Positions 19,288 to 54,343 of a stretch of DNA of 64,000 nt are shown one piece after another. The DNA lies in contig NZ_CP109796.1 of NCBI RefSeq assembly GCF_038725785.1, positions 1,984,001-2,048,000 on the forward strand, given 5' to 3'. The stretch is from Termitidicoccus mucosus. Its GTDB lineage: Bacteria; Verrucomicrobiota; Verrucomicrobiia; Opitutales; Opitutaceae. Numbering within the stretch: the first letter of the stretch is position 1; each line of letters opens with the position of its first letter. The position numbers and the translations under genes are program-made. The notes under the pieces are model-generated. The model did no database searches and was not told the origin of the DNA. It was given only the letters and a program-made list of their open reading frames with translations.

Positions 19288-21800
19288 ATGACCCGCTTTC
19301 ATATTATCACCAACGCCCACCTCGATCCCGTCTGGCTATGGGACTGGCGCGAGGGCTTGAACGAAGGCATCGCCACCTGCCGCGCGGTGCTCGATTTGAT
19401 GAATGAGTTTCCCGAGCTGAAATTCACGCGCGGCGAGGCGTCGGTTTACGAGCACATCGAGCGGCACGCCCCGGAGACGTTCGCGCGCATCCGGGAAAAA
19501 ATCGCGGAGGGGCGCTGGGAGGTGGCGGGCGGGAACTACGTGCAGCCGACACGAACCTGCCGGCGACGGAGGTGCTCGCGCGCCAGTTCCGGCGCGGACT
19601 CGGCTACTTCCGGCGCGCGCTCGGCGTGCGCCCGGTCGCGGCGTGGGCGGCAGACTCATTCGGGCACAGCGCGGGCTGTCCCGCGATTTACGCGGCGGCG
19701 GGCATGAAGTATTTTGCGTTCTGGCGGCCGTTCGCGTCGGAGCTCGCGCTGCCCGGGCCCGCGTTCTGGTGGGAGGCGGCGGGCGGCGAACGCGTATTGT
19801 CATGGCGGATACAGGTCGGCTGGTATGGCTCGACGCGCGCGGAAATCCCGGGGCGGCTCGACGCCTACCGCGAGGAGTCCGCACAATGGGGGGTTGAAAA
19901 CGTGATGGTGCCGCTCGGGCTGGGCAACCACGGCGGCGGGCCGTCGCGCGCGCAGATCGAGGCGGTGCTGCGCTGGCGCGGGCAAAATCGCGACGTGGAG
20001 GTGGTGTTCTCGACGCTGCACGGATTTTTCGAGGCGCTCTCGGCGGAAGCGGCGCGGCTGCCGGTATTCAGGGGGGAGTTGAATTTTACGCTGCGCGGCT
20101 GCTACGCATCCGCCGCGTCAGTGAAGTTCGCCTACCGGCGCGCGGAAAACGCGCTCCTGCAAGCCGAGCGCACAGTGTCCGCCGTCGGCGCGCTGCGCGA
20201 GGCGGAAAACATCGGCACGGCCCCGCCCGCGCCGGATCTGGGCGAGGCGTGGGACGCGGTGCTTTTCAACACCTTTCACGACGTGCTGCCCGGCACGGCC
20301 ATCGAGCGGGCGCTGGCGGGGCAGCGCGCGTGGATCGGCCTGGCGCAACACCACGCGGCGCGCGCGGAGAACGACGCGCTGAACGCGCTGGCGTCGCGGG
20401 TGGACACAAGCGTGCCTCGCGCCACGGGCGACCGGCCCGCCGTCGCGCCCGTGCTGTTGTGGAACCCGAATCCGCATCCCTTCGACGGGCCGGTGGAGTT
20501 TGAGGCGCCGCTGGACTATCGCCCGCTGGACGCGTTCAAAAACAAACCCGACGCCGTGCCGCTCGCGGTGCGCGACGGCGCGGGGCGCGCGCTGCCGTTC
20601 CAGTGCGTGGCCGTGGAAAACAATTTCGCGCTTGAGACACCGTGGCGCAAACGCTTCGTCACGCGGGTGAAAATCCCGCCATGTGGCTGGCATGTGCTAA
20701 CGGCGGGGCTGGCGGACGCGCCGGTGAAAACACCTCGTGTGAAAACCGACCTTCGCGCGGGCGCCGGGCGCATCGCGAACCGCGTGTGGGAGATCCGCGC
20801 CGCCGCGGGCGCCGGGCGCGTCGTGATTTCGCGCAAGGGAAAACAGGCGCGCCGCCTCGGGCTGCGCGTGCTCACGGTGGACGACCCCTGGGGATCGTGG
20901 GGCGGGCACAACGGCGAGCCGGAGGCAAATCATGTCAACCACGTGAAAGACGCCTGGAAAATCGAGGCGGTCGAGACGCTTGAACGCGGACCGGAACGGG
21001 CTTCGCTCTGGATTCGGCTGACGGGCGCGGGCGGGGCGTCGTGGATCGAACTGACCTTGCGGCTTTGGCGCGATGATGACGCGGTCGTGGTGAAAACGCG
21101 CGCGTTTTGGGCCGAAAAATCGGCGCGCTTGAAACTGGAGTTTTCCGGCATCGGCGGCGCGGCGGAGTTCGAGGCGCCCGGCGGCAGCGTCCGGCGCGAG
21201 CCATGCGGCGACGTGCCGGGCGGGCGCTGGGTGCGCTTTGGCGGGGGGCGCGACGCTTTCGTTTTCGCGAGCGACGCGCTGTATTGTTTTGACACCACCG
21301 CGACCACCTTTGGCGCGACGATTGCGAGGAGCGCGCCCTATGCGTCGCTTGGCGGCGCGCGTCCCGGCGTCGAGACTTGGCGGCCGTGCATGGACTTGGG
21401 CGAGCACTTGTTCCAGTTCGCGCTGGGCGCTGACGCCGACGCGCTGGCGCGCCGGCTGGAATCGCCGCCGGTCGCATTGCTGACGGCGGCGCACGAGGGC
21501 GCGCTGCCGCGCACGGGCGGCGTGCTGCGCGCCGGGCCGGGCTTGCGGTTGCTGGCGTTCGCGCGGGCGGCGGACGGCGGCTGGATGCTGCGCGTGCAAA
21601 GCAGCGCGGGCCGCGCGGCGGACGCGACAGTCGAGCTTTTGGGCGGGCGCATCGCGCTCGGGCGGCTCGCGCCGGGCCGGATACGCACCGTGATTCTGCG
21701 GCATGCCGCGGACGGCGGCGGACGGGGCGCCGGCGCGTGGACATGCGCCACGGTGAACTGCGCGGAAGAAACGGCGGCACCGGAGGGTAACAAGTCATGA
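19288..21800 (+). CDS. GH38 alpha-mannosidase (one frameshift at ~19,547)
   Basis: This hydrolyses terminal alpha-mannosides and is about 837 residues long after repairing one missing C (the left copy has CCC at 4,644-4,646). HLDPVWLW at residues 11-18 supplies zinc ligands His11 and Asp13. DSFGHS near residue 123 carries the catalytic Asp nucleophile. NTFHDVLPGTAIE is another GH38 segment. No signal peptide is seen, so it probably works in the cytoplasm on imported oligosaccharides. The start ATG follows an operator-containing leader. The stop overlaps the next gene as ATGA, marking an operon. Confidence 0.85.
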
Positions 21801-22963
21801 ACCCCGCCATGCCGGGCACAGCGCAGACGGCGGCGGCGCTTGAGCAAAGCGAGTTGTTCACGCGATGGCGCGATCCCGTGTCGGGCGTGGAAAGCTTCAT
21901 CCTCAACAAGCGAAGGGCCGCGCCGTTGCAGCTCTCGTTTTATTTCGTGAACTCCGGCTTCTCGGACGACGGGCGCTTCCTCTGGATGTATTGCGCGTTT
22001 CCGCCGGGCGGCGACGCGTATTACGGACGCCAGCTCGCGGTTGCGGATTTTGAGAGGCAGACCGTGCGGCATTTTCCGGAGACGCAGTTCATGGACGCCT
22101 CGCCCTACGTCGATGCCGCGACCGGCGAGGTTTACTGGACAACGGGGCTGGAGGTCTGGAAACGCGGTCCGCTGCCGGGCGACACGGCGGCGCAGATCGG
22201 AGCGTTTCCCGCCGAACTGGCGCGCAACCGTCGCCCGCTGCGCATCGCCACGCACCTGAGCCGCTCCGCCGACGGGCGCGCGTTCGCCATCGATGCTCAA
22301 ATCGGCGCGGACTGGTTCGCGGGCGAGCTGCCGCTGGCGACCGGCGGCGCGGTGGACGCAGGTGCGTTCCGGCTGTGGCGGCGCTTTGACATTTGCCATA
22401 ACCACGCGCAGCTCAGCCCCGTTGACCCGGGGCTGATGCTGATCGCACAGGATGGCTGGAACGACCCGACAACCGGCGAGGAGGGCGTGACGCGGGACCG
22501 CCTGTGGCTGCTGCGACGCGACGGAGCGCTCACGCAACTCGTGCCGGACGACCCGCTGCCCTCGTCATTGCGCGGCCACGAGTGGTGGGACGCCGGCGGC
22601 GAGCACGTGTGGTATATCGATTACAGGCGCGGGACGGCGAAAATCAACTTGCGCACCGGGCGCCGCGAGCTCGTGTGGCCGAACGGCCACACCCATTCGC
22701 ATTGCGACCGCGCCGGGCGCTGGCTCGCGGGCGACGCGAACCCGGACGACGGGAGCTGGCGCGTCTTGTTTTTCAACATAAAAACGGGGCGCGAGATTGG
22801 CATCGTTTCAAAACTGCCGCCGCTGGACCGGCGGCCCTACCATGTCCATCCGCACCCGCGGTTCTGCCTGCACGACCGCTACATTTGCTACACGACAAAC
22901 GTGCTCGGCACCGTGGATGTCGCCATCACGTCTGTGGAGCAACTGGCCGCTCTGACAAGCTGA
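21797..22963 (+). CDS. PL22-like (oligogalacturonate lyase family) propeller protein
   Basis: This 388-residue protein resembles the oligogalacturonide lyase family PL22, a seven-bladed beta-propeller. Supporting features are repeated blade-like segments (FSDDGRFLWMYC, HLSRSADGRAF, GEHVWYIDY) and the C-terminal HVHPHPRFCLHD, comparable to the His-rich metal site of that family. No signal peptide is visible. It overlaps the mannosidase stop by 4 bases. A paralogue lies at 29,717. True substrate is unknown: an oligogalacturonide seems odd in a mannoside locus, so a different uronate-containing or unrelated substrate is possible. Confidence 0.6.
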   Translation: MNPAMPGTAQTAAALEQSELFTRWRDPVSGVESFILNKRRAAPLQLSFYFVNSGFSDDGRFLWMYCAFPPGGDAYYGRQLAVADFERQTVRHFPETQFMDASPYVDAATGEVYWTTGLEVWKRGPLPGDTAAQIGAFPAELARNRRPLRIATHLSRSADGRAFAIDAQIGADWFAGELPLATGGAVDAGAFRLWRRFDICHNHAQLSPVDPGLMLIAQDGWNDPTTGEEGVTRDRLWLLRRDGALTQLVPDDPLPSSLRGHEWWDAGGEHVWYIDYRRGTAKINLRTGRRELVWPNGHTHSHCDRAGRWLAGDANPDDGSWRVLFFNIKTGREIGIVSKLPPLDRRPYHVHPHPRFCLHDRYICYTTNVLGTVDVAITSVEQLAALTS

Positions 22964-23049: not shown

Positions 23050-24477
23050 ATGCAGACAAACCCACCCGGCATCCCCGGTGCGGCACCGGCCGCGCCCGTC
23101 CGAAAAATATACACCGCCGGCACGCTGCGCTACACGACGGGCGGCGTCGTGATGCTGTTCCTGTGGCTTTTGTGGGGCGATTTTTGCTTTTCGATTTTCG
23201 AGGAGATTTTCTCAAAGTTCCTGCCGCTTTACATGAAGGATCTCAACGCCTCCAGCACGCTGGTCGGCGTGCTGACGGGCAGCCTGGGCGGCATCGTGAA
23301 CGTGCTTTTCATGCCCGGCATCAGCATGGCCAGCGACCGGCATCGCGGGCCGCGCGGGCGGCGCATTCCGTTTCTGCTTTGGTCCACGCCGTGCGCGGTC
23401 GGCTCGCTGATTTTGATCGGGTTTTCGTCGGAGCTTGGCGGCTGGCTGCACGCGCTGCTGGGCGGCGCGTCGCCGGGCATGACGGCGGCGGGCGTGACGC
23501 TCGCGCTGCTCTGCGTGTTCGTGGCGATGTATCATTTTTTCAACATGGTGCTGGTGAATCTCTACCAGTGCCTGTTGCGCGACGTGGTGCCGCCGGCGCT
23601 CATGGCGCGCTTTCTGGCGCTGTTCCGCGTGGTGAGCACGGGCGGCAGGTTTGTGTTCTCGTGGTATGTGCTTCCGAATGTGCTCCTGCATCGCGAGGCG
23701 GTGTTCCTGGGCGTCGGGCTGATCTATGTGGCGGCGTTTTTGCTGATGTGCTGGCGGGTGAAGGAGGGCGCGTATCCGCCGCCGCGGCAGCCAGCGGGGG
23801 AAAAGGCGCCGAGGTACCTGGCCACCTACATCGTGTATTTCCGCGAGTGCCTGACGGTGCCCATCTACCGCAATTTCGTTTTCATGTATGCGTGCGTGAC
23901 GGCGGCCTCGACGTGCGCGATGCCATTCGTGACCCTCTTCACGCGGGACACGCTCGGGCTGTCGATGGAGGACATCGGACGTGTGTTCGCGTGGGGCTGG
24001 CTGGCGGCGGCGCTCACCTACGTGCCGTTCGGGTACCTGTGCGACAAGGTTTCGCCGATGCGGGTGGCGTGCTGCGCGCTGGCGGGGTTGATGCTCTCAT
24101 GGGGCATCGGTTATTTCGCGATTCAGGACCGCACGTCGTGGCTGGTTTATTGGGTCGTCGTGGCGATGCTGCCGAGCACTGCCTGGAACCTCGGACTGAC
24201 CGCGCTTACAATGCAGTTGTTTCACCAGGAAAAATTCGCCCAGCTTTCGTCCGGTCTCAACGTGCTCGGCTATGGGAGCAGCATTCTGGGCAGCTTCCTG
24301 ATCGGGCTGTTCATCGATCTGACGGGCCAGAATTACCGCATGATTTTTTTGTGGTCGTTCTGCTGGTTCGCACTGGCGGTCGCATGCATGGCGCTGGTTT
24401 ACCGCGACTGGAAACGGCTCGGCGGCCCGGACAACTACGCGGCGCCGCTGCCGGGAAAACCCGCCTCCGCAATCTAG
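23050..24477 (+). CDS. Major facilitator superfamily transporter
   Basis: This 475-residue protein is a multi-pass inner-membrane protein with about 12 hydrophobic segments. SDRHRGPRGRRIPFLLWSTP in the loop after helix 2-3 resembles the MFS/GPH sugar-transporter signature. It probably carries a mono- or oligosaccharide, or a glycoside, across the inner membrane. It lies 86 bp after the PL22-like gene and 15 bp before the first oxidoreductase, within the mannosidase operon. Confidence 0.8.
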   Translation: MQTNPPGIPGAAPAAPVRKIYTAGTLRYTTGGVVMLFLWLLWGDFCFSIFEEIFSKFLPLYMKDLNASSTLVGVLTGSLGGIVNVLFMPGISMASDRHRGPRGRRIPFLLWSTPCAVGSLILIGFSSELGGWLHALLGGASPGMTAAGVTLALLCVFVAMYHFFNMVLVNLYQCLLRDVVPPALMARFLALFRVVSTGGRFVFSWYVLPNVLLHREAVFLGVGLIYVAAFLLMCWRVKEGAYPPPRQPAGEKAPRYLATYIVYFRECLTVPIYRNFVFMYACVTAASTCAMPFVTLFTRDTLGLSMEDIGRVFAWGWLAAALTYVPFGYLCDKVSPMRVACCALAGLMLSWGIGYFAIQDRTSWLVYWVVVAMLPSTAWNLGLTALTMQLFHQEKFAQLSSGLNVLGYGSSILGSFLIGLFIDLTGQNYRMIFLWSFCWFALAVACMALVYRDWKRLGGPDNYAAPLPGKPASAI

Positions 24478-24492
24478 CCGCAAACATCGGGA

Positions 24493-25545
24493 ATGAACGC
24501 GCCATTGAACATCGGTTTTGTCGGCCTCGGCTGGGGCGCTCACATCGCCGGCACGCTTGCGTCCGGCCCCGCATCGCGCCTCTTCACGGTCGCCGCCGTG
24601 TGCGACACGGACGCGCGACGGCGCGCGGAATTCTCCGCGCGCCACCGCGTGAAAGCCTACACCGGCCTCGACGATTTGCTCGCCGACCGCGATGTGCCCG
24701 TGATCGGCCTCTTCAGCGGCCCGGCGGGGCGCGCGGAGTTGCTGCGCCGCATCATCCGCGCCGGCAAGGACGTGATGACGACCAAGCCCTTTGAACTCGA
24801 TCCCGCCGCCGCGCGCAGCGTGCTTGAGGAAGCGCGCGCGCTGGGCCGCGTCATCCATGTCAACTCGCCTCCGCCGGAGCCGCCGCGCTACATCGCGCAA
24901 ATCCTCCAGTGGCGGCGCGAGCACGACCTCGGCCGCCCCGTTGGTTGTCACGGCGAAAATCTCACCACCTACCACGAAAAAGCCGACGGGCGCTGGCTCG
25001 ACGATCCCGCGCTCTGCCCCGCCGCGCCCGTTTTTCGAATCGGCATCTACACGCTCAACGACCTGCTGCGACTCTTCGGCCCGGTCAGCGCCGTGAACGT
25101 GATGACCAGCCGCATCCGCACCGGGCGCCCGACGCCCGACAACGCGCAGCTCGGCCTGTTCTTCGCCAGCGGCGCGATCGGCAGCGTGCACGCGAGCTTT
25201 TGCGTGGACGACGGCCAGCACTATGCGAACGCGCTCACGCTGCACTACGAGCGCGGCACGATCACCCGCAACATCCTCCCCGCCGGCTACGGAAAAGCCG
25301 AGCAGCGCACGCACTTGCGGCTCGTGCGCTCCACTGTGACGAAGGACGGCCCGGAGGTTGTCGTCGAGAACTGGGAGTCCGGGGAGCCGTCGGGCAGCTA
25401 CGAATGGCAGGCATTTCACGATGCCGTCACCGGACGGCGAAAAATCGAAATGCCCGTCGATGAAATCGTGAACGCGACCGCGGTGGTCGCGGCGATGGCG
25501 CGCGCCGAACGCTCGGGAGCGACGGAGCGTGTATTCCTGCCATGA
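24493..25545 (+). CDS. Gfo/Idh/MocA family oxidoreductase
   Basis: This is a 350-residue NAD(P)-dependent sugar oxidoreductase. The Rossmann motif is GFVGLGWGAH at residues 8-17. The usual EKP motif is TKPFEL here, keeping the catalytic-site Lys but not the Glu. HHD-type residues of the second domain are not obvious. Family members oxidise sugars or sugar acids, and some cleave glycosides by a redox route. It overlaps the next gene by 4 bases. Substrate not predictable from sequence alone. Confidence 0.8.
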   Translation: MNAPLNIGFVGLGWGAHIAGTLASGPASRLFTVAAVCDTDARRRAEFSARHRVKAYTGLDDLLADRDVPVIGLFSGPAGRAELLRRIIRAGKDVMTTKPFELDPAAARSVLEEARALGRVIHVNSPPPEPPRYIAQILQWRREHDLGRPVGCHGENLTTYHEKADGRWLDDPALCPAAPVFRIGIYTLNDLLRLFGPVSAVNVMTSRIRTGRPTPDNAQLGLFFASGAIGSVHASFCVDDGQHYANALTLHYERGTITRNILPAGYGKAEQRTHLRLVRSTVTKDGPEVVVENWESGEPSGSYEWQAFHDAVTGRRKIEMPVDEIVNATAVVAAMARAERSGATERVFLP

Positions 25546-26546
25546 ATACAAATGCTCCGGCGCCGGATTTTGTCCCGCAGCCCGTCGGCGTCGCGCTTTA
25601 CGGCGCGAACGGCCACCAGATTCACGGGTTGCTCGCGGCGCGGCGCGACATGGCGCGGCTTTGTGCCGTGGCCGGGTTTCCTCCGGAAAAACTGCCGCCC
25701 GGCCTGCGTGCGCGCGACGGCGCGCGCGTGTGCGCCAACCTCGACGATCTGCTCGCCGACCCGCGCGTGGAGCTGGTGTCGCTGTGCTCGCCGCGCCGCC
25801 GCGACCAGGCGCTCGACGCCATCCGCGCCCTGCGCGCGGGCAAACATGTTTACGCGGAAAAACCGTGCGCCTTCAGCGAGCCGGAGCTTGATGCGATTCT
25901 GGACGCGGCGCGCGAAAACGGCAGGGTGTTTCGCGAAATGGCCGGCACGGCGTTTCTCCAGCCGTATCTTGAGATGCGCCGCATCGTCCTCTCGGGGATC
26001 CTCGGGCGCGTCGTGCAGGTGGTCGCTGAAAAGTCCTACCCGTGGCACGACGCCCGCCCGCAGGATGAGGACATCGACGGCGGGCTCATCCGCCAGTGCG
26101 CCATCCACGCGCTGCGCTTTGTCGAGCATGTGGCCTGCGAGCGCATCGTCTCCGCCGGCGCGATTGAGACCCGCGCGGGCAACCCGGTCGCGGGCGGCGG
26201 CTCGCGCATCGCGGCGTGCCTGATGCTCGGCCTCGCATCGGGGGGCGTGGCGGGCATCGCGGCGAACTACCTCAACCCGAAGGGCACCGGCGAGTGGGGC
26301 TACGAGACGCTGCGCATCCTTGGCGAAAAAGGCATGGTCGAGTCAACCCAGGGCGGTGCTCACACGCGCCTAGTGGTGGGCGACCGCGACCTGGGGCCGC
26401 TGGACACCTCGCAGCCTGGTATCGAGTATCTGGATACATTTCTCGCCCAAATTCGCGGGCGCGGCGCCATGCCGCTTTCGTCCGAGGAAGAGCTAAGCCC
26501 GACGCGCTGGGTCATCCGCGCCAAACAATCCCCACAATCCCCATGA
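25542..26546 (+). CDS. Gfo/Idh/MocA family oxidoreductase
   Basis: This is a 334-residue second member of the family, only distantly similar to its neighbour. The N-terminal Rossmann region reads VALYGANGHQIHG, and the conserved AEKPCAF holds the EKP motif. IRQCAIHALRFVEHV gives the second-domain helix with a His. Start and stop both overlap their neighbours as ATGA, so it is translationally coupled. Two different family members side by side suggest successive or paired redox steps on one sugar. Confidence 0.8.
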   Translation: MNTNAPAPDFVPQPVGVALYGANGHQIHGLLAARRDMARLCAVAGFPPEKLPPGLRARDGARVCANLDDLLADPRVELVSLCSPRRRDQALDAIRALRAGKHVYAEKPCAFSEPELDAILDAARENGRVFREMAGTAFLQPYLEMRRIVLSGILGRVVQVVAEKSYPWHDARPQDEDIDGGLIRQCAIHALRFVEHVACERIVSAGAIETRAGNPVAGGGSRIAACLMLGLASGGVAGIAANYLNPKGTGEWGYETLRILGEKGMVESTQGGAHTRLVVGDRDLGPLDTSQPGIEYLDTFLAQIRGRGAMPLSSEEELSPTRWVIRAKQSPQSP

Positions 26547-29651: not shown

Positions 29652-29678
29652 TTAACGTTTCAACACGCCCGCGGTTGC
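29652..29678 (+). promoter_or_regulatory. LacI-type operator plus TTGC element upstream of PL22-like gene 2
   Basis: TTAACGTTTCAA lies at 29,652-29,663, followed after 11 bp by TTGC at 29,675. The gene's ATG is 53 bp downstream of the operator. Layout is identical to the other sites. Confidence 0.65.
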
Positions 29679-31032: not shown

Positions 31033-31059
31033 TTAACGTTTCAGCATTGCGGCGATTGC
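31033..31059 (+). promoter_or_regulatory. LacI-type operator plus TTGC element upstream of the giant surface protein gene
   Basis: TTAACGTTTCAG lies at 31,033-31,044, then 11 bp, then TTGC at 31,056. Downstream sequence to about 31,100 also resembles the leader of the 29,717 gene. The chosen ATG (31,211) is 166 bp away, so the leader is long. Confidence 0.6.
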
Positions 31060-44766: not shown

Positions 44767-47700
44767 TCACTTGCCACTTCTTCCACGGGTCTGTTTTGCG
44801 AGCAACGCGAGGGTGGCGAGCGCCGCCAGGAACCACGGCGAGGCCGCGCCTCCTCCGCCACCATTGTTTCCATCGTTATTGTCGCCGGGGGGGCTTGTCG
44901 TGCCGGTGTTGGTGCCGCTTGGGGCGACGGTGGTGAGGAGCAGGGGAGTCTCGGTGCTTCCGATGGCGGCGTCCGTGATGATGCGGACGGTCTTGTTGCC
45001 GGTGTCGGCCACATAGAGCGCGCCGTCCGGACCGGCGACGATGTCGCGGGGGGCGCTAAAGCGGGTGCTCGCGCCCGTGGGACCGTCGGCCGTGCCGGAT
45101 ATGCCCACGGCGCCCGCGAGCGTGCGCATGGCGCCGTCGACCGGGACGGAACGGATGACCGAGTTGCCGGTGTCCGCCACATGGACGACACCGTCCAGCC
45201 AGGCCACGCCGGACGGCGAGGCGTAGCCCGCGGCGGAGAGCACCGTCATGGCGAAACCCGAGCCGGGTTGCGCGCCGGGGGTGATTTTGCGAATGGCGTT
45301 GTTGCCGGTGTCGGCCACGTAGAGCGCGCCGTCGCCGCCCCAAGTGATGTCGAGCGGCGTGTCGAGGTGGCCGGCATCGGCGCCGGGCTCGTCGCGCCAG
45401 CCCGCGATGGTGGTGACGGCGCCGTCGGGCGTGATGGCGCGCACGGTGTGGCTTTTCGAGTCGGCGACAAAGAGGTGGCCGCTGTCGTCGATGGCGAGGC
45501 CGGCGGGCGACTTGAGGCGGGCGGCGGCACCGGCACCGTCAGCGGCGGCATCGGCGGCCGGGGCGCTTGCGTTGCCGGCGAGCGTGGTGACCTTGCCGGT
45601 GGAGATTTCGACGGCGCGAATGACGTTGTTGCCGGTGTCGGCCACATAGGCGGTGCCGGAGCGAATGGCGAGGCCGCCGGGTTGCCTGAAGCGCGCGGCG
45701 GTGCCGGTGGCGTCGAGCCAGCCGGCGGCGCCGCCGGGGTCGCCGGCGAGAACTGTCGCCAAGCCGGCGGGGTCGATGAGGTCGATGGTGTTTTGCGCGG
45801 TATTGGCGATGTAGATGGCGCCGGTGGCGTCCACGGCGAGGGCGCGGACGCCGGGCTGGTAGAGGCGCGAGACAATGATGGCGGCGACGTTGCCGGGCAC
45901 GGGCGGAAGCGTGCCAATGGTGGCGACGTAACGGAATTGCAGGCGGGCGAGATCGGGGGTGACGCCGGGCAGCGTGAGCGTGGCGCCGCCGTTGGTGATT
46001 TGGTGGGCGAATGGCGCGCTCGAGTCGATGGCGCGCCATTCGGCGCCGTCGTGGTATTCCCAATGAATCGTCGGGGCGGGCTCGCCGGCGGCGGGTGCGT
46101 TGAAGGTGATGGTGTCACCCTCGATGACGGTGGTGGTCGCGGGGAGGTTCACGGCGTTGTCGGACGCGCGCAGGATATAGAGCGGAAACTCGCCGATCAT
46201 GGCGGTGGTGGCGGGGACGGTGTTGCTCATCATGTCGCGAACCACGTCGCCGGCGCGGAGGGCGGTGACATCGGTGAGGGCGACCGGCTTGGTTGACCAA
46301 TACACATCAACGTCGCCGGAGGCTTTCGTGAAGTGGAGGACGGAGAGGATGGATTCGCCGACGGTTTTTGTCTCAAAGCCGTTGGCCGCGGGCGCGGCGT
46401 CCTCGGTGAGCGAGACCATGGCGGCGTGCGCGGCGAGGCCGGGGCCGGGAATGCCGGTGACATCGACGCAGGCCGAGGTGCCGTCGGCCTGGATGTCGCG
46501 CCCGGTTTCGCTGGCGGCGACGACATAGAGGAAGTGCCGGAGCACGCCGTTGGCCTTGAAAAAGAGGGCGGTGCGCACGATGGCGGCGGCGGCCTGCGGG
46601 GGTGTCATGGAACTGGAGGCGGGCATGCGGCTGGTGGCGAGCCAGCTTTGCCCGCCGGACAGCCAAGGGCCGCCCTCGGTGTGCCATAGCGGGAGGGATT
46701 GGCCGAAGCGGTTGGTGTGAGTCTGGTAGCGGGCGAGGAGTTCCAGTGCCTGTGCGGAGCCGGGAATGGCGCCGGCGGCGGCGGTGCTGTAGAAGTGGAA
46801 AGAGAAAGCGTCGAGTTTCGCGCCCGCGCCAGCGTCGAGAACCTGCCAGCCGAGTTGGGCGTTGATTTCGGAGACGGCGGGGCCGACCAGCGTGAACGGC
46901 CTGCCCGTGGCGGCGAGGGCCTCGTGGGTGGCATCGAGGAGCGTGCGGATGACAGCATCCTTTTGCTGGCCGGGCTTGACTTGGAGGTAGCCGCCATCGG
47001 GCTCATTCCAGAGTTCCCAGGCATCGACGTGGGGCGAGAATTCGGTGAAGGCGCGCGTGACGTAGGTTTTCCACTGGTTGATATCCGCCGGCGGATATGA
47101 GTTGCTCCAGCGGTTGGCGACCGCGCCGGGCGCGGTGTTGATGTCGGCGGCCCAGTCGGGCGCGGTGTCGAAGCTGCCGAGGATGCTGAAACCGGCGGAC
47201 TTGGCCGCGGCAAGCTCGGTGGTGTTGAAGCGCCACTGCCCTTGCGCCGGCTCGACTGCCATCCACTTGGTGGTCATCGGCGGGTAGAGTCGCAGCCAGC
47301 GGAAGCCGCCGCGGCGCGCGATTTCGAGGTTGTAAGGCGTGAGGTCGATGTGCGCCCCGAAAAATGAATCGGGCCGGCTGCCCGGCGCGTCGAGTTCGGG
47401 GAGCACGCTGTAGAGTTGCTCGGCCAGCACGGTCTCCGCGCCGGCTCGGCGGGCCTCGATGCGAAACGCGCCGAGGGTCGTGGTCTGCATGGTGAACGCG
47501 GATTCGCCGAGGCCGTCCGCTCCGATGGCGACGGACACGTTTTGCTCATCGATTTTGCGTCCGAGAAAATCCACCGCGGCGACTTGGAACGCCAGCGTCG
47601 AGGAGGGCTGCTCGCCGGCGGCGACGAGCTTGAACGCCGCCGTGTCGCCGGGCGCGTAAAGGTTGCCCGCGGGCGCGCCGGAGCCGGGCTGGATGGCATG

Positions 47701-48789
47701 CGCGGGCGGGTTGGCCACGGGGCTGGTCTGCGCGGTTTCCACGAACGCAAAATCGTCGAAGTCGAACCTGCCGCTGCCAAGCTGAATCCTGACCACATAG
47801 ACGCCGTCGGCGGCCGGCTTGAGCGTGAGCGGCACCGTGTATTTTTGCCAGATGGTGGACAGCACCAGCGGCTGCGACTGGAGCAGGATGTCGCTGTTTT
47901 TCCCGCCGGCCACGCCCGCCGTGAGCGAGCGGGCGGTGCTGCAACGCGCCCAGAAAGTGAGCGCCGCGGGATGCCCGTAGCGCGCCGGGAAGTAGGCGCT
48001 GGTCAGCCAGCCCCAATTGCCGGCCTTCACCTCGACGGACAGATGGCGTTTGCCGTGCGGGGCGTCCGCCGCCTCGATCGATTCAAGCTTCGCGCCGGGC
48101 TGCGAGGGATAGCCGTTGCCGGTCTCGCCCGTGCTCCAGCCGGTGCCGAATTCGGGCGTGCGGATCGACGCCGTCCAGCCGTCGGCGCCGGCCTCGAAAG
48201 ACTGGTTGCGGATGGGGTTGAGCGACGGCATCCCGCCTCCCTCGGCCGCCGGCAGCTCCGCGAGCGAGACATCATCAATCCAATATCTGCCCGGCGCGTG
48301 CAGCCAGAAGCCGAGATAGACCTGCGCCCCGGCGGCGAGGTCCGCCGGCAGCGAGGTGCGGAAAACATACTCGCGCCACTCCTCCGTGAAAATCATCTCC
48401 ATGCGCAAAAGGACGCGGTCGCCCGGGCTCGACTGCCGGAGCAGGATGGTGACCGGCACACCCTCGGTATCGCCGCGCGCCCAGAAACGCAGTTCCACCG
48501 AGGTGTCCGCGCGCACACCCAGGCTGCGATAGGCGACATGCCCCGCTCCGGCGCTCAGCGAGTATTGGCCGGAGCGGGGATTCTGCGGGTCGCGCACCGC
48601 GGCGTCGCCCGCGCCGCCGTAGTTCGCCGCGTCGTAAACCCACGGCGTGAGGGACTGCTCAAAGCCGGGGTTGGAGATGAGGTTGGCCGAGGTCTGTGCC
48701 TCGGTCCGCGCGGTGACAAGGATGGTGGCCGCCAGCGCCAGCAGCAGGCGAACGGCAGTGTGTGTGATGCGATCGGGGATTTTTTTCAT
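44767..48789 (-). CDS. Secreted GH39-like glycoside hydrolase with Ig-like domain, NHL propeller and sorting tail
   Basis: This 1,340-residue paralogue of the protein at 41,475 extends much further. Order: signal peptide (to ~TEAQT), two CBM-like domains, catalytic barrel with ELWNEPDGG (Glu596) and LWHTEGG (Glu705), an Ig-like segment (~865-960; EPAPTIHWEYHDG), then five or more NHL blades (VADTGNNVIR, VADSKSHTVR, VADTGNNAIR, VADTGNSVIR, VADTGNKTVR). It ends with a Gly-rich GGGGGAASP, hydrophobic helix and KQTRGR tail. That tail resembles the one on the giant protein, so both may be surface-sorted the same way. It is transcribed divergently from the TonB receptor. Confidence 0.75.
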   Translation of the reverse strand: MKKIPDRITHTAVRLLLALAATILVTARTEAQTSANLISNPGFEQSLTPWVYDAANYGGAGDAAVRDPQNPRSGQYSLSAGAGHVAYRSLGVRADTSVELRFWARGDTEGVPVTILLRQSSPGDRVLLRMEMIFTEEWREYVFRTSLPADLAAGAQVYLGFWLHAPGRYWIDDVSLAELPAAEGGGMPSLNPIRNQSFEAGADGWTASIRTPEFGTGWSTGETGNGYPSQPGAKLESIEAADAPHGKRHLSVEVKAGNWGWLTSAYFPARYGHPAALTFWARCSTARSLTAGVAGGKNSDILLQSQPLVLSTIWQKYTVPLTLKPAADGVYVVRIQLGSGRFDFDDFAFVETAQTSPVANPPAHAIQPGSGAPAGNLYAPGDTAAFKLVAAGEQPSSTLAFQVAAVDFLGRKIDEQNVSVAIGADGLGESAFTMQTTTLGAFRIEARRAGAETVLAEQLYSVLPELDAPGSRPDSFFGAHIDLTPYNLEIARRGGFRWLRLYPPMTTKWMAVEPAQGQWRFNTTELAAAKSAGFSILGSFDTAPDWAADINTAPGAVANRWSNSYPPADINQWKTYVTRAFTEFSPHVDAWELWNEPDGGYLQVKPGQQKDAVIRTLLDATHEALAATGRPFTLVGPAVSEINAQLGWQVLDAGAGAKLDAFSFHFYSTAAAGAIPGSAQALELLARYQTHTNRFGQSLPLWHTEGGPWLSGGQSWLATSRMPASSSMTPPQAAAAIVRTALFFKANGVLRHFLYVVAASETGRDIQADGTSACVDVTGIPGPGLAAHAAMVSLTEDAAPAANGFETKTVGESILSVLHFTKASGDVDVYWSTKPVALTDVTALRAGDVVRDMMSNTVPATTAMIGEFPLYILRASDNAVNLPATTTVIEGDTITFNAPAAGEPAPTIHWEYHDGAEWRAIDSSAPFAHQITNGGATLTLPGVTPDLARLQFRYVATIGTLPPVPGNVAAIIVSRLYQPGVRALAVDATGAIYIANTAQNTIDLIDPAGLATVLAGDPGGAAGWLDATGTAARFRQPGGLAIRSGTAYVADTGNNVIRAVEISTGKVTTLAGNASAPAADAAADGAGAAARLKSPAGLAIDDSGHLFVADSKSHTVRAITPDGAVTTIAGWRDEPGADAGHLDTPLDITWGGDGALYVADTGNNAIRKITPGAQPGSGFAMTVLSAAGYASPSGVAWLDGVVHVADTGNSVIRSVPVDGAMRTLAGAVGISGTADGPTGASTRFSAPRDIVAGPDGALYVADTGNKTVRIITDAAIGSTETPLLLTTVAPSGTNTGTTSPPGDNNDGNNGGGGGAASPWFLAALATLALLAKQTRGRSGK

Positions 48790-48853: not shown

Positions 48854-48880
48854 GCAACGCCGCGGGTGCTGAAACGTTAA
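48854..48880 (-). promoter_or_regulatory. LacI-type operator plus TTGC element for the - strand glycosidase
   Basis: Read on the - strand, TTAACGTTTCAG occupies 48,880-48,869, then 11 bp, then TTGC at 48,857-48,854. The start codon is 79 bp beyond the operator. Confidence 0.65.
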
Positions 48881-48898
48881 CCCATTCGATGCTTCTGT

Positions 48899-48925
48899 TT
48901 AACGCTTCAGCGCGGTGCGGCTTGC
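48899..48925 (+). promoter_or_regulatory. LacI-type operator plus TTGC element for the TonB receptor gene
   Basis: TTAACGCTTCAG lies at 48,899-48,910, then 11 bp, then TTGC at 48,922. It is back-to-back with the - strand site, 18 bp apart, in a 233-bp divergent promoter region. Confidence 0.65.
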
Positions 48926-49022
48926 CCCCGCCGCCCGCATCGCGGATGAAAACGCGCGCCGAAAGCGGCCCGTAGCCATCCCCACCGAGATTCCCGCAAC
49001 CTCAACCACAAAACCTCCGCCC

Positions 49023-51824
49023 ATGCCTTCATCATCCCTTTGCATTGCTCCCCGCTTGGCGCCGTTTGCGCTGGCGCTGGCCGCGTTCATCTGTGTCCGC
49101 CCCGTCTGTTCTGCCCAGGCAGTCTCCGCGCCCGGCGACGCACAAACGGACGATCAGGAGGAGGAGATCGTCGTCCTGAGTCCGTTTTCCGTGAACGCCG
49201 AGAAGGATCGCGGCTACCTCGCCGCCGACACGCTCACCGGCGGGCGCATGGCGACCAACCTGCTCACCACGCCCGGCGACATCACGGTGCAGACCCGCGA
49301 ATTCCTCAACGACATCGCCGCCAACACGCTCACCGACGCCTATAAATGGATGCCCAACGCCACCGTCGCCGACCCGCCCGGCGTCAGCGGCAGCGCCATC
49401 GACTCCGGGCAGACGTTCACCTTTCGCGGCCTGCCCTCCGGCGGCAACGCGCGCAATTATTTCGCCGGATACAATTTCAGCGTGAACGATTTTGTCGTCG
49501 AGCGCATTGAGCAGATACGCGGTCCGGCCAGCATCCTCTACGGCCAGTCCTGGTCGGGCGGTGCCGTCAACATCGTCACCAAGCGCCCCATCTTCGGCAA
49601 AAACGACGTCCGCCTGGGCATAAAGGGCGATGCCGAGGGCACCCAAGGCGTGTCGATCGACGCCAACTACGGACGCTCCAAATACCTTGCCCTCCGCGTC
49701 AATGCCACCGACCAGCGTCTCCGCAACTGGGTGAGCACCTATTTCGACGACCTCACCGCTGTTGACCTGAGCGCGACCGTGCGCCCGTGGAAAGGCGCGG
49801 AAATCCGCATCGAGGGCGAAACCGGCGTCCGCGAGATGACCGGCCAGCCCGGACCTTTCGTGCTCATGGACGCCGTGTCCGCATGGGACGGGCGCACCAT
49901 TTACGAGGGACGCCAGGCGGATGACTACAGCACCCTCGTGCCCGACAGCGGCACCTCGCTCATCCAGCCCGCCCAGGCGCACATGATTTACAGCCCGGTT
50001 CTCGGCGGCAAGGTGCTGGATTTCTCATATTTCGCCACGACCTACGGCACCGGCATGTCCGTCGTGGATCGCTCCAATTATTATTCCAACAGAATGCCCG
50101 TGCTGATGAACATGCCCACGCTGCCCTCCAAGGGCTTCAGCCCGCAGCCCACCAACAACAAATACGTGAACCACTACTCCTCCCTTCAGGCCTTCTGGAG
50201 CCAGACATGGGACAACGGCCTGGCGCTGGAGCTCTCCGCCTCGTTCAACGAAATCAGCCGCACCACCCCGAACGCGGGCCAGAGCCTTTGGGGCAACATG
50301 AAACTCGACATCAACCGCTATCTGCCCGACGGAGCCAACAACCCCGGCTTCATGAAATACTTCAGCGACACCACGATCGAAGGCGGCAACGTGGACAATT
50401 ACCAAAACGATGCGCAGGTCAGGCTCAACGCCCTCTACCCCATCAAGTTCGGCTGGGGCAGGCAAACCTTCGCGGTCATGCTCCAGAACGACCTCCAAAG
50501 CTACCGCTGGCGCGCCCACGCCTACGCCCGCCTCAACAACGGCAACCCCTACTCCACCTCCAATCTCGTCAGCTTCCGCCAGTATTGGGACAACCCAAAC
50601 CTGCCCCTCGTGCTTCCCTCCACCGACGCCGAGGGCAACCCCTATGGCTGGTCGCCCAGCGCCCACCGCGACCAGTCCACCAAGCTTCAGTCCATCCAAG
50701 TCGGCACCGTCGGCAGCTACTTCGACGACAGGTTTACCGTCATCGCCGGCGCCCGCCGCGACGTTTACCACTACAGCGAAAACAACCACAACATCGTCAA
50801 CGGCGTCATTGCCGGCGACCGGATCACCAGTTTCTCGCGCAGCGCCAACACCGCCTCCATCGGCGCCACCTACTTCCCCGTCAAGGCTCTCGGCGCCCTC
50901 GTCAATTACTCGGGCGGCTTCCAGCCCAACACCATCACTTACCCCTTCTTCCCCGGCTTCAAGGGCGACTACGTGACCACCAGCAAGGTGCTCACCCTCG
51001 GCATCCGCTTCAACCTCTTCAAAGGCGCCGTCGTCGGCTCCCTCGGCTATTACGCCTCCAAGGAGCAAAACCGCGTCCAGCGCTACGACTCCCTCAACAT
51101 CCGCTCCATCTGGGAAAACATGGGCGAGCTTGAAAGGTATCCGTTCCAAGGATACACGGCCTACAGCGACACCTTCGACCAGGAGGGCAGCGGCCTCGAG
51201 CTGGACCTTGTCGCCAACCCGACGAAAAACCTCCGCCTCACCGCCAACTTCAGCATCCCGCGCACCAAACAGTCCAACTCCATGCCCGGCTCGCGCGCCT
51301 ACCTCGCCGAGCACGAGCCCGAGTGGCGCGCCTGGATGCAGGCCCACCCGAACGACGCCTGGCGCGTTGAGCAGCAGCTCAGCTCATGGATAAACACCGT
51401 CTCCGACTCCGTGAACGGGCGCACGCTCAACGGCACCTTCGACTACCGCGCCAACTTCTATGGAGTCTACACCTTTTCCAAGGGCATCCTGAAGGGCTTT
51501 CGCATCGGCGGCGGCGGCAACCTCTACGGCAGGCGCGTCATCGGCAACGTCCTTGGCGATGGCAAGAATTATATAAAAGCCGACGCCTACGCCGTCTATA
51601 CGCTGATGACCGCCTACGCCTTCAAACTCGGCCGCACCTCGGTTTATATACAAGTGAACATCGACAATCTCTTCAATTACGACAAGCCCGTGTTCAACAA
51701 CGTGCAGCTTACGGGCGGACGCACCCCGTGGAACACCCCCGAGACCGCCAACACGGCGTATCCCTTCGGATACTATTACAACAACCCGCGCATGCTCCGC
51801 CTCGGCATGACGGTGAGCTTCTAA
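49023..51824 (+). CDS. TonB-dependent outer membrane receptor
   Basis: This is an outer membrane transporter of 933 residues. A signal peptide ends near VCSAQA. The segment EEEIVVLSPFSVNAEKDRGY holds the TonB-box-like sequence typical of verrucomicrobial receptors, followed by a plug domain (VERIEQIRGPASILYGQSWSGGAVNIVTK) and a 22-strand-type barrel ending in SF. No SusD-like partner is encoded nearby, so uptake does not follow the Bacteroidota SusC/D scheme. The ATG at 49,023 is chosen because it begins the signal peptide. It probably imports the oligosaccharides freed by the two GH39-like enzymes. Confidence 0.9.
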   Translation: MPSSSLCIAPRLAPFALALAAFICVRPVCSAQAVSAPGDAQTDDQEEEIVVLSPFSVNAEKDRGYLAADTLTGGRMATNLLTTPGDITVQTREFLNDIAANTLTDAYKWMPNATVADPPGVSGSAIDSGQTFTFRGLPSGGNARNYFAGYNFSVNDFVVERIEQIRGPASILYGQSWSGGAVNIVTKRPIFGKNDVRLGIKGDAEGTQGVSIDANYGRSKYLALRVNATDQRLRNWVSTYFDDLTAVDLSATVRPWKGAEIRIEGETGVREMTGQPGPFVLMDAVSAWDGRTIYEGRQADDYSTLVPDSGTSLIQPAQAHMIYSPVLGGKVLDFSYFATTYGTGMSVVDRSNYYSNRMPVLMNMPTLPSKGFSPQPTNNKYVNHYSSLQAFWSQTWDNGLALELSASFNEISRTTPNAGQSLWGNMKLDINRYLPDGANNPGFMKYFSDTTIEGGNVDNYQNDAQVRLNALYPIKFGWGRQTFAVMLQNDLQSYRWRAHAYARLNNGNPYSTSNLVSFRQYWDNPNLPLVLPSTDAEGNPYGWSPSAHRDQSTKLQSIQVGTVGSYFDDRFTVIAGARRDVYHYSENNHNIVNGVIAGDRITSFSRSANTASIGATYFPVKALGALVNYSGGFQPNTITYPFFPGFKGDYVTTSKVLTLGIRFNLFKGAVVGSLGYYASKEQNRVQRYDSLNIRSIWENMGELERYPFQGYTAYSDTFDQEGSGLELDLVANPTKNLRLTANFSIPRTKQSNSMPGSRAYLAEHEPEWRAWMQAHPNDAWRVEQQLSSWINTVSDSVNGRTLNGTFDYRANFYGVYTFSKGILKGFRIGGGGNLYGRRVIGNVLGDGKNYIKADAYAVYTLMTAYAFKLGRTSVYIQVNIDNLFNYDKPVFNNVQLTGGRTPWNTPETANTAYPFGYYYNNPRMLRLGMTVSF

Positions 51825-51960: not shown

Positions 51961-53196
51961 ATGAAAATCAAAACGGTCACTACCAACAAGCAAGACCAGG
52001 TTGCCGTCGCGTCCCCGGCATGGCGCGCGCGGCTCAAAAAACTGCGCGCCGCGCACGCGCGTTTCCTCGGACGGAGGAACCGCGTTGACCGCGACTGGGA
52101 CAATGGCGTGTTCGAGCGCTTCGAGCACCCGGTGATCACCGGCGCCCACATCCCGCTGGAGTGGCGCTACGACCTCGACCCGACGGCAAACCCGTTCCTG
52201 ATGGAGCGGCTCGCCGTGAACTGCGCGTTCAATCCCGGCGCGTTTTTCTGGAAGGGAAAGGCGCACCTGGTCGTCCGTGTCGAGGGCAACGACCGCAAGA
52301 GTTTTTTTGCCATCGCCGAGAGTCCAAACGGCATCGACCGCTGGCGCTTCTGGGACGAGCCGCTCGACCTGCCGGAACTCAAGCCCGAGACCAACGTCTA
52401 TGACATGCGCGTGACGTTTCACGAGGACGGCTGGATCTACGGCGCGTTTTGCTCGGAGTCGCGCAACCCCGCCGCGGCCCCCGGCGACCTGTCCTCCGCC
52501 GTCGCGCAGGCCGGCATCGTGCGCACGCGGGATTTCCGCAAATGGGAGCGCCTGCCCAACCTCCGCACGCCCGCCTCGCAGCAGCGCAACGTCGTGCTGC
52601 ACCCCGAGTTCATCGGCGGGCAATATGCGTTTTATACAAGGCCGATGGACGGCTTTATAGATGTCGGCTCCGGCGGCGGCATCGGGTGGACATTGTGCAA
52701 GGACATCGCGACGGGCGTGACCGGCCCCGAGGCGATCATCGACACACGCGCCTATCATACGATCAAGGAAACCAAAAACGGCCAGGGGCCCGCGCCCATG
52801 AAAACCTCCTCGGGCTGGCTGCACCTCGCGCACGGCGTGCGCGCCTGCGCGTCGGGGCTGCGCTACGTGCTGTATATGTTCATGACCGCGCTCGACGCCC
52901 CTTCGCGCGTCATCGCGCGCCCGGGCGGGTTTTTCCTCGCGCCGCACGGCGGCGAGGGTTTCGGCGATGTGTCAAACGTCGCCTTTTCAAACGGCTGGCT
53001 CCAACTGCCGGACAAGGCCGGCACGGTGCTCATATACTACGGCGGCTCCGACAGCCGCTGCTATGTCGCGCGCTCGACCGTCGCCAGGCTTGTTGACTGG
53101 TGCCTCCGCACGCCGGAGGACGCGCTCACCACGCGCGGCTCGCTCGATCAACGGCTGGCATTGATCCGCGCAAACCGCGCGCTGGCAAAACGCTGA
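51961..53196 (+). CDS. GH130 glycosidase, 4-O-beta-D-mannosyl-D-glucose phosphorylase type
   Basis: This phosphorolyses beta-1,4-mannosyl-glucose (or related beta-mannosides) to mannose-1-phosphate. The 411-residue protein follows the family pattern closely: PLEWRYDLDPTANPFLMERL, VRVEGNDRKSFFAIAESPNG, ETNVYDMR (likely catalytic Asp148), HEDGWIYGAFCSES, QQRNVVLHPEFIGGQYAFYTRP and KTSSGWLHLAHGVR. No signal peptide, so cytoplasmic. It lies 136 bp after the TonB receptor gene and 25 bp before a UroD-like gene. It is the strongest sequence evidence that the locus handles beta-mannosides. Confidence 0.9.
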   Translation: MKIKTVTTNKQDQVAVASPAWRARLKKLRAAHARFLGRRNRVDRDWDNGVFERFEHPVITGAHIPLEWRYDLDPTANPFLMERLAVNCAFNPGAFFWKGKAHLVVRVEGNDRKSFFAIAESPNGIDRWRFWDEPLDLPELKPETNVYDMRVTFHEDGWIYGAFCSESRNPAAAPGDLSSAVAQAGIVRTRDFRKWERLPNLRTPASQQRNVVLHPEFIGGQYAFYTRPMDGFIDVGSGGGIGWTLCKDIATGVTGPEAIIDTRAYHTIKETKNGQGPAPMKTSSGWLHLAHGVRACASGLRYVLYMFMTALDAPSRVIARPGGFFLAPHGGEGFGDVSNVAFSNGWLQLPDKAGTVLIYYGGSDSRCYVARSTVARLVDWCLRTPEDALTTRGSLDQRLALIRANRALAKR

Positions 53197-53221: not shown

Positions 53222-54343
53222 ATGACCTCCAAGGAACGACTCCTCCGCGCCCTCAACCTCGAAAAACCCGACCGCCTGCCCGCCACCGTGCACCAATGGC
53301 AGCCGTTTCATCTCGATGCATACATGGGCGGCATCACGCCGCTTGAGGCGTTCAAACACACCGGCCTCGACGCGCAAATCCAATACTACGCCGACATGGG
53401 CTTGTCGTGGACGACCGACGCCGGGCAAAACGCCGTGCAGGCGCCCGGCTGGCGCGAGGAAATTGAAATTATAAAAAACGAGCCCGACGACCGCATCCTC
53501 CACCACACCGTCACCACGCCGGGCGGCGTGCTCACCTATGCCACCGGCGGCGACCGCAAGACCACCTGGGTCAACGAATATATCATAAAAAAACACGACG
53601 ACATCGAACTCCTGCGCAAATACATGCCGGTGCCAAAACTCAATCGCGACAAAATCAGCGCGGAGTATGACGCCATCGGCGACGCCGGCATCCTGCGCGG
53701 ATTTGTCTGGGGCGACCAGGCCGGCTGTTGGCAGCATGCGTGCTGCCTGTATCCAGCCGAGGAGCTGATTGTCGAAGCCATGGAAAACCCGGACTGGGTG
53801 CACGCGCTCCTTGCGCTTCTGCTCGACAAAAAACTCCGCTTCATCGACGAGTCGCTCACCGGTGCGAAATTCGACCTCATCGAAACCGGCGGCGGCGCAT
53901 CCAGCGACACGCTCATCTCGCCAAGGCTTCACGCCGAGTTCTGCCTCCCCTATGACAGACGGATGCACGACGCCCTTCGCGCCATCGGCCAGCGCAGCAC
54001 CTATCATACCTGCGGCGGCATGATGTTCATCCTCGACCTGCTCCTGCAAAACGGCGCCGACGCATCCGAAACGCTCGCCCCGCCCGGGGTCGGCGGCAAT
54101 ATTACGGAGCCCGGGAAAGTGCGCGCGGTCTTCGGCGGCAGGCGGGCGATGATCGGCGGCTTGGATCAATTCAACATTCTCACGACCGGCACGCCCGCGC
54201 AAATTCGCGCCGAAACGCGCCGCCTCTTCGAAGGCTTCGGCAAGGACGGCGGCTACATCTGCGCCGCGTCTGATCACTTTTTCGAAACGCCGGTCGATAA
54301 TCTGAAAGCCTTCGCCGCCGCTGCTCGCGAATGCACCTATTGA
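53222..54343 (+). CDS. UroD superfamily protein with HxC...C zinc-type motif (methyltransferase-like)
   Basis: This 373-residue protein of PF01208 carries His262-Thr-Cys264 (in YHTCGGMMF) and a Cys near 347 (GGYICAASDH), then FFETPVDNL. This matches the zinc ligand pattern of corrinoid-dependent methyltransferases such as MtaA and MtbA, unlike the other UroD-like protein here (27,281), which has HSD. It is probably cytoplasmic. No corrinoid protein gene is visible in the window. It could act in demethylation of an O-methylated sugar, but this is inference. It follows the GH130 gene by 25 bp. Confidence 0.75.
   Translation: MTSKERLLRALNLEKPDRLPATVHQWQPFHLDAYMGGITPLEAFKHTGLDAQIQYYADMGLSWTTDAGQNAVQAPGWREEIEIIKNEPDDRILHHTVTTPGGVLTYATGGDRKTTWVNEYIIKKHDDIELLRKYMPVPKLNRDKISAEYDAIGDAGILRGFVWGDQAGCWQHACCLYPAEELIVEAMENPDWVHALLALLLDKKLRFIDESLTGAKFDLIETGGGASSDTLISPRLHAEFCLPYDRRMHDALRAIGQRSTYHTCGGMMFILDLLLQNGADASETLAPPGVGGNITEPGKVRAVFGGRRAMIGGLDQFNILTTGTPAQIRAETRRLFEGFGKDGGYICAASDHFFETPVDNLKAFAAAARECTY

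Follow-up and report, generated by a model that had tools for sequence, protein, structure and literature searches.

Glycan utilisation loci of the Sus type combine a TonB receptor, secreted glycosidases, cytoplasmic enzymes and one sensor-regulator, and SusD is a trait of the Bacteroidota. The locus described here occupies about 35 kb (positions 19288 to 54343) of a window of 64,000 nucleotides, bases 1,984,001-2,048,000 of contig C1 of a 7.92 Mb genome in two contigs, and belongs to a bacterium whose closest named relatives in a protein search are Opitutaceae (L039, L040, L042). It resembles Sus-type loci in all of these components but differs from them by its LacI regulator, an autotransporter, a giant repeat protein and two UroD-like proteins. 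No SusD was seen among the open reading frames (ORFs) of the locus scanned with Pfam, no search aimed at SusD having been made, and since SusD is a Bacteroidota trait its lack does not set the locus apart. Judged from its genes, the locus is read here, tentatively and with slightly less than even confidence, as a single LacI-controlled, SusD-less regulon for a heteroglycan that contains mannose and probably bears uronic acid and O-methyl groups.

Several proteins of the locus have described counterparts. For the known clusters of a UroD methyltransferase with a corrinoid protein and an activase, Kountz and Balskus argue for a role with methyl-sulfur or methyl-selenium; a His-Cys-Cys zinc site marks S-methyltransferases, and in O-methyltransferases one or both cysteines are replaced by carboxylates or non-coordinating residues (PMC10418091). 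The UroD-like proteins of the locus, UroD1 and UroD2, recall the MtaA/CmuA proteins and the mlp clusters of this paper, as UroD2 matches the MtaA/CmuA model (E 9e-20, under cut-off) and orthologues of UroD1 lie in clusters with RACo, but they differ from them by an Asp in each zinc site and by their position in a glycan regulon, away from the single stand-alone corrinoid protein of the genome. For the catalytic domain of one secreted enzyme, GHA1, a low-confidence model has its best fold match in PslG of Pseudomonas aeruginosa. PslG is a retaining endo-beta-glucosidase whose target is the Psl made by the producer itself, a polymer built of mannose, rhamnose and glucose that bears an alpha-1,2-mannose branch (PMC11912335).

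A common operator and gene order in relatives

The LacI-family regulator (28496..29578, plus strand; Pfam) is the sole regulator found in the locus, and orthologues with about 50% identity stand beside PL22-like or GH39-like genes. Its putative operator, T[GT]AACG[CT]TTCA (TKAACGYTTCA), was drawn after inspection of intergenic stretches for palindromes and is derived from the promoters of the locus and from L040, L042, L043, L044 and L166. Before the GH38 gene the site is a perfect palindrome, TGTTGAACGCTTCAACA (19223..19239, plus strand, with the pattern match at 19226), and an equivalent site is present in L042 and L040. Further pattern matches precede the genes of PL22-like protein B (PLB; 29652..29662, plus strand) and of the giant protein (31033..31043, plus strand), and two lie in the divergent promoter of the TonB receptor and GHA2, one of the two secreted GH39-like enzymes (48870..48880, minus strand; 48899..48909, plus strand), where the related genome G002 also has two sites (L166). 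The window holds six exact matches against 0.12 expected, a count that is partly circular because the pattern was taken from the same promoters; five stand before transcription units of the locus and one, at 4323, lies in an assembly duplicate. Genome-wide (7.9 Mb) there are 11 exact matches versus two for the reversed control pattern, five of the 11 lying off the window. A Cas1 gene (L206:1595-2626, at about 2.77 Mb of the same genome) is found some 3 kb from one off-locus match.

Independent support comes from three loci that were not inspected when the pattern was drawn: the exact operator lies on both sides of the LacI orthologue in L107, before the ORF upstream of a GHA gene in L165 and before GHA2 in L167. 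With one mismatch it also occurs in L045 and L097, and no match was found in L164 with one mismatch allowed. In total 13 of the 201 loci scanned carry an exact operator.

Gene order was compared with two drafts among other relatives, G002 (68% complete) and G001 (72% complete). In G002 (L042/L100/L101) the genes for GH38, PL22-like protein A, the MFS transporter, both Gfo/Idh oxidoreductases, the esterase, UroD1 and LacI follow each other in the same order. The series from GH38 through PL22-like protein A, MFS and Gfo/Idh 1 to the esterase is also found in L040 up to near the contig end, with an extra ORF in between and no match to Gfo/Idh 2. On separate contigs of G002 the autotransporter gene adjoins the gene of the other GH39-like enzyme, GHA1 (L164), and the TonB receptor gene adjoins GHA2 (L166); no close orthologue of GH130 or UroD2 was found in this incomplete draft. 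LacI, PL22-like and GH39-like genes stand side by side in four distant verrucomicrobial loci (L043, L044, L045, L097), and Gfo/Idh genes come after the GH39-like gene in L045 and L165. An earlier note on this DNA had proposed one regulated locus and had named scattering of the orthologous neighbours in relatives as the finding that would speak against it. In G002 the order of the GH38-LacI block is kept and the autotransporter-GHA1 and TonB-GHA2 pairs lie on other contigs; the common operator together with the partial synteny supports the proposal. It is highly probable that the 35 kb form one LacI-controlled regulon, which the operator defines.

UroD-like proteins and a distant corrinoid protein

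UroD1 (27281..28306, plus strand; Pfam, alignment and orthologue context) and the MtaA/CmuA-like UroD2 (53222..54343, plus strand; Pfam, NCBIfam and alignment) both match PF01208 above the cut-off. At the alignment positions of the zinc site His-Asp-Cys is found in all five rows of the UroD1 clade and His-Cys-Asp in all six rows of the UroD2 clade. Because one cysteine of the site is Asp in each, both proteins are of the O-type by the rule of Kountz and Balskus (PMC10418091), and the glycan decoration therefore points to O-methyl groups. The suggestion of a decorated glycan, which had been drawn from the redox, esterase and UroD-like functions, is thereby sharpened, as the zinc ligands of the two UroD-like proteins suggest corrinoid methyltransferases of the O-type. 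UroD1 and UroD2 are best read as corrinoid-dependent methyltransferases of the O-demethylase type, a prediction for which doubt and confidence are nearly balanced, with doubt slightly ahead. A UroD-like protein of the genome's own RACo cluster (L191:7188-8183) has a His-Cys-Cys site.

Three genomes, G017, G023 and G041, encode a UroD1 orthologue that is about 60% identical. In the first two its gene is a direct neighbour of RACo, and in G041 the two are separated by a single further UroD gene; a stand-alone corrinoid protein is encoded within the RACo cluster of G023 and G041, and in the cluster of G017 the ORF L183:6602-7252, tested for a corrinoid protein, gave no match. All three genomes have a UroD2-like gene (39-42%) near the UroD1 orthologue. 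Between the UroD1-like and UroD2-like genes of such clusters lie ORFs of 424 amino acids without Pfam match (L184:8602-9873 and in L185); L185:2485-3699 and 3709-4980 (minus strand), like L184:8602-9873, may or may not be genes.

The genome studied here has 25 matches to PF01208, which amount to 24 UroD genes because two of the matches are halves of one gene, HemE by its N-terminus. Its one RACo (region of C1:6049507) and its one stand-alone B12-binding corrinoid protein (region of C1:6058450) are both encoded in a UroD cluster at about 6.05 Mb, and we infer that they serve UroD1 and UroD2 from this distance; a second B12-binding_2 match lies in a frame of 1229 amino acids, probably MetH. The cluster (G000:C1:6048000-6060000, L191) comprises RACo, DUF1638, three UroD genes and the corrinoid protein, and a HemE-like gene lies some kilobases away. 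At about 3.297 Mb (L188:7542-14007) two further UroD-like genes, one of them 34% identical to UroD1, adjoin genes for a sulfatase and for an esterase of the SASA type, and a TonB-receptor-like ORF stands in line with them; this is perhaps another glycan locus with UroD genes.

Across 115 relatives at least two UroD matches were found in 34 of the 35 RACo-positive genomes versus 8 of the 80 RACo-negative ones, and RACo is present in 22 of the 23 genomes with at least four UroD matches, a correlation that is suggestive only because the UroD counts are bounded (up to about 16 per genome among the matches listed) and RACo clusters contribute UroD genes. Nine of 24 two-species genera differ in RACo, and in all nine the RACo-positive species has more UroD; another five genera with two species, neither of which has RACo, lie outside this comparison. 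It could be imagined that in verrucomicrobial glycan loci substrate-specific UroD-family O-demethylases feed one distant corrinoid protein and RACo as a modular system, a generalisation that we regard as speculative. If true, such modular demethylation would explain the expansion of UroD to 24 genes in this genome, a function may emerge for many genes that now carry the label uroporphyrinogen decarboxylase, and glycan methyl groups would enter one-carbon metabolism. O-methylated sugars can protect a polysaccharide against ordinary glycosidases, and the stripping of methyl groups is a step rarely considered in glycan-utilisation gene sets. We know of no route for the corrinoid-dependent removal of sugar methyl ethers, and no prior account of it was among the literature matches listed, most subscription journals lying outside that search.

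Lyase-like, GH39-like and mannoside enzymes

PL22-like protein A (21797..22963, plus strand; profile, model and fold comparison) is a beta-propeller related to oligogalacturonate lyase (OGL) and is 49% identical to PLB (29717..30988, plus strand; sub-threshold Pfam match and profile). The AlphaFold model (pLDDT 91) has OGL as its best solved fold, the kinship being supported by Foldseek (E 7e-17) and by profile (E 5e-17), and superposition on 3pe7 (VIA Z 33.4, rmsd 3.0, 337 residues, 17% identity) indicates the OGL beta-propeller fold. We take Arg217 and His242 of OGL to be catalytic and His287, Gln350, His353 and His355 to be the Mn ligands. In an alignment of 44 PL22-like sequences the equivalents of Arg217 and His242 are kept in 43 and 44 rows, respectively, and those of His287 and His355 in 43-44, so that the likeness to OGL (3pe7, 3c5m) extends from the fold to these residues. 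The family differs from OGL by Tyr at the position of Gln350 (44 of 44), by Asp (32 rows) or His (12 rows) at that of His353 and by an extra invariant His349. As two of the four metal-ligand positions are changed, the proteins are relatives of PL22 and not PL22 proper, and of the two PL22-like proteins named in the earlier note, both kin to OGL by profile and fold, only one matches PF14583, below the cut-off (E 6e-4). Model and conserved residues together make lyase chemistry rather probable.

The profile search yielded 61 loci, whose titles name Verrucomicrobia, Lentisphaerae, Planctomycetota, Chloroflexi groups, Clostridia, Paenibacillus and others; among the 115 relatives 34 have a PL22-like match, many of them short and partial, and in eight the match is strong (E < 1e-25). 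With record titles from several phyla, the altered PL22-like family offers itself as a further group of enzymes for assay. Partners near these genes were tallied over 184 (93 + 91) of 200 listed ORFs of at most 900 amino acids. In L041-L070 there was no dominant partner among the 25 families shown, LacI and Peripla_BP_3 accounting for 5 of 93 ORFs each. In L071-L098 GH88-type matches were found in 6 of the 91 ORFs next to family members, probably in six clostridial loci, and a GH88-type ORF cluster recurs in 9 of 60 named loci, with two members verified by Pfam.

GHA1 (41475..44114, plus strand; alignment and fold comparison) consists of a CBM4/9-like module and a GH39-like catalytic domain behind a signal peptide recognised by eye, and its paralogue GHA2 (44767..48789, minus strand; Pfam and alignment) carries Ig and NHL repeats. 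The Glu of WNEPD and the Glu of W-x-x-EGG, the presumed acid/base and nucleophile, are kept in all six GHA sequences. The catalytic domain of GHA1 has no Pfam match even at E values up to 5, and what points to GH39, as the earlier note had it, is the fold comparison of a low-confidence model, in which PslG gave the best structural alignment (5bx9; Z 17.5, rmsd 4.6, 316 residues). Other PslG chains tie with 5bx9 and GH39 beta-xylosidases come next, the GH39 chains reaching Z 14-17.5. GHA1 may have the GH-A TIM barrel with paired Glu that characterises GH39; from PslG it differs by an identity of only 14% and by the CBM4/9-like module. Rows drawn in the structural search by the CBM-like part were unrelated and disregarded, and the plain Foldseek matches of GHA1, mainly GH2 enzymes at a query TM of up to 0.21, were not used. 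By analogy, and as a lead, a Psl-like heteroglycan would suit the GH39-like, GH38 and GH130 enzymes together.

The GH38 alpha-mannosidase (19288..21800, plus strand; PF01074 and PF09261, DNA alignment, duplicate copy) has mannosylglycerate hydrolase as its best NCBIfam match (E 1.5e-11), far under the cut-off. GH130 (51961..53196, plus strand; PF04041) resembles 4-O-beta-D-mannosyl-D-glucose phosphorylases in the PDB over nearly its whole length (3was, E 5e-157, residues 24-408; 5ay9, E 2e-129), and the corresponding function is predicted with high confidence; a second copy, 76% identical, lies at 474003-475181 of the genome. The mannose chemistry proposed for the locus is supported by both enzymes. 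The setting differs from that usual for the 3was/5ay9 type, as the customary partner, a mannobiose 2-epimerase of the GlcNAc_2-epim family (PF07221), sought in the whole genome with 13 candidates scored, gave no match. The usual feed from mannobiose therefore seems absent, and GH130 may take Man-Glc straight from the heteropolymer. In the Opitutaceae genome G005 (L171) a GH130 of this type stands beside a GlcNAc_2-epim epimerase and GH94, and among 12 GH130 loci, of which two overlap, three have an ORF of the epimerase cluster nearby, one of these ORFs having been scanned.

How could these proteins act together on one glycan? GHA1 and GHA2 would act first, as extracellular enzymes that cleave the polymer, the giant protein and the autotransporter would be placed at the cell surface, and the fragments would be brought inward by the TonB-dependent receptor (48915..51824, plus strand; PF07715) and the MFS transporter (23050..24477, plus strand; PF07690), which is 93% identical and syntenic in G002. 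Cytoplasmic PL22-like propellers could then cleave a uronate-type linkage by metal-dependent beta-elimination, as fold and catalytic residues suggest. GH38 would take off alpha-mannose, and GH130, judged from its close relatives, would phosphorolyse Man-beta-1,4-Glc to mannose-1-phosphate and glucose. An alpha/beta-hydrolase esterase (26543..27207, plus strand; Pfam and relatives) may strip acyl groups, and UroD1 and UroD2 would pass sugar O-methyl groups to the shared corrinoid protein of the cell, which RACo would keep reduced. The Gfo/Idh/MocA oxidoreductases 1 (24493..25545) and 2 (25542..26546; both plus strand and PF01408) might oxidise or reduce the product.

Alternative readings and the state of the assembly

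A number of observations weigh against a single regulon for an O-methylated heteroglycan. The operator was drawn after the promoters of the locus itself had been inspected, and L049 (18995-19005) and L051 (10666-10676) have an exact operator and no LacI orthologue match; these sites may be due to chance or to another regulator. NCBIfam matches of the TonB receptor are weak, all below cut-off and mostly to siderophore receptors, the model of GHA1 has a pLDDT of 58 and is poor, the locus itself shows no GH88, and the GH38 and esterase genes are broken as assembled. On the MtaA/CmuA model (cut-off 235.4) UroD2 scores 71.2 bits and UroD1 15.6 bits (E 0.007); since both are under the cut-off of a model that covers one subfamily, membership proper is not claimed. 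The sole PDB sequence match of UroD2 is the uroporphyrinogen decarboxylase 4wsh (E 1.5e-4), UroD1 has none up to E 0.1, and the third zinc ligand of UroD2 is not certain because another Cys lies four residues before the aligned Asp. Neither a corrinoid protein nor RACo was found in the locus, all genome matches lying elsewhere. Among the matches listed, UroD2 orthologues (G041:C180, G001:C2, G094:C126, G034:C105, G008:C21) are off the RACo contigs, the 44-45% relatives of UroD1 in G034 and G035 are on contigs without RACo match, and the correlation of RACo with UroD number is partly built in, as the RACo clusters themselves hold UroD genes. It could thus be argued that UroD1 and UroD2 are unrelated to glycan demethylation and are S- or Se-methyltransferases or other recruited UroD-fold enzymes, which would agree with the methyl-sulfur or methyl-selenium role argued for known UroD-corrinoid-activase clusters in PMC10418091, with the strong divergence of UroD1 and with the contig positions of the UroD2 orthologues. 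However, Asp replaces one zinc-site Cys in 11 of 11 rows of both clades, which is O-type by the same paper, and both genes lie inside a sugar regulon; this explanation is doubtful, though it is the most serious of the alternatives.

In G002 no PLB gene comes after the GH38-LacI block over a distance of about 2 kb, a further point against the unity of the locus, and for this reason the locus looks like a composite of two blocks, GH38 to LacI and PLB through the GHA genes to the TonB receptor, under one regulator. That two independent loci, GH38 to LacI and PLB to UroD2, merely lie side by side would also account for this gap and for the autotransporter-GHA1 and TonB-GHA2 pairs on other contigs, but the same operator precedes the first block and three units of the second, in G002 GH38 and the TonB/GHA2 pair are likewise both preceded by it, and a single LacI gene was found, which leaves such a coincidence quite improbable. 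An ordinary beta-mannan or glucomannan locus, with GH130 for Man-Glc, GH38 for the trimming of alpha-mannose, and UroD-like and PL22-like proteins in an accessory part that has no bearing on the substrate, appears unlikely: the kinship of GH130 and its neighbourhood with epimerase and GH94 in G005 fit it, but PF07221 has no match in the genome, the scanned ORFs of the locus include no endo-mannanase family, GHA1 and GHA2 as its secreted enzymes are GH39-like and the partners that recur together in distant loci are PL22-like, LacI and GH39-like genes. Similarly, the PL22-like proteins might be partners of the Gfo/Idh pair in the handling of oxidised (keto) glycosides and not uronate lyases, since the Gfo/Idh genes come after those for PL22-like protein A and the MFS transporter in the window and after the GH39-like gene in L045 and L165, Gfo/Idh 1 has a faint NCBIfam match to disaccharide 3-dehydrogenase (E 0.004) and two of the four OGL metal-ligand positions differ. 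The nearly invariant catalytic Arg and His and the GH88-type genes near the family in L071-L098, which act on products of uronate lyases, argue against this proposal, and we give it little weight. The mannoside polysaccharide utilisation locus of the earlier note is partly supported: GH38, GH130 and the common operator speak for it, and the locus looks built of two blocks, which are separate in the draft G002.

Gene families were assigned by Pfam on the ORFs of the window, and the gene list proposed for 19288-54343 holds in outline, with a LacI regulator, the esterase and an autotransporter (PF03797) besides the families named above. It has to be corrected for GH38 and the esterase, each broken by the loss of one base, and for the MFS transporter, which is present as the gene 23050-24477 and not as the longer ORF 22965-24794. 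The halves of the GH38 domain sit in two ORFs (19162-19707 and 19572-21800), and by DNA alignment with two relatives one C is missing from CCCGACACG, near 19543 (19543-19545). The esterase starts with ATG at 26543 and, compared with relatives, shifts frame in a run of seven A at 26554-26560. Window positions 1-6612 match 14942-21590 to 97.5%, the differences amounting to 19 substitutions and 71 gap openings. The stretch L202:5544-14001, which lies immediately before the window, aligns in the same way to 6623-14941, here at a cost of 16 substitutions and 104 gap openings. This tandem duplicate of about 15 kb (window 1-21590 and G000:C1:1975543-1984000), whose copies differ chiefly by indels, is probably an untrimmed assembly overlap of noisy sequence, and gene counts and frames within it are unreliable. 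The ORF 4259-5701 lies within the duplicate and so repeats the 5' end of GH38; its frame is open at the break point, yet itself broken further on. Since this copy and two relatives read through and the duplicate differs mainly by indels, the break in GH38 is probably a sequence error and a true pseudogene is less likely. The same holds for the esterase, which lies outside the duplicate and for which relatives alone argue for an intact frame.

Scans with Rfam and for tRNAs gave a single tRNA-Val, outside the locus. The giant surface protein of 2048 amino acids (31064..37210, plus strand; Pfam and repeat analysis) contains five Listeria-Bacteroides repeats, an FGE-sulfatase domain by Pfam, though no sulfatase was seen in the locus, and a C-terminal hydrophobic tail recognised by eye. 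The autotransporter (37384..41445, plus strand; Pfam and repeats), encoded on the same contig as GHA1 in G002, is paralogous to parts of it, the two sharing long modules with direct repeats of 212-300 nucleotides at 65-81% identity.

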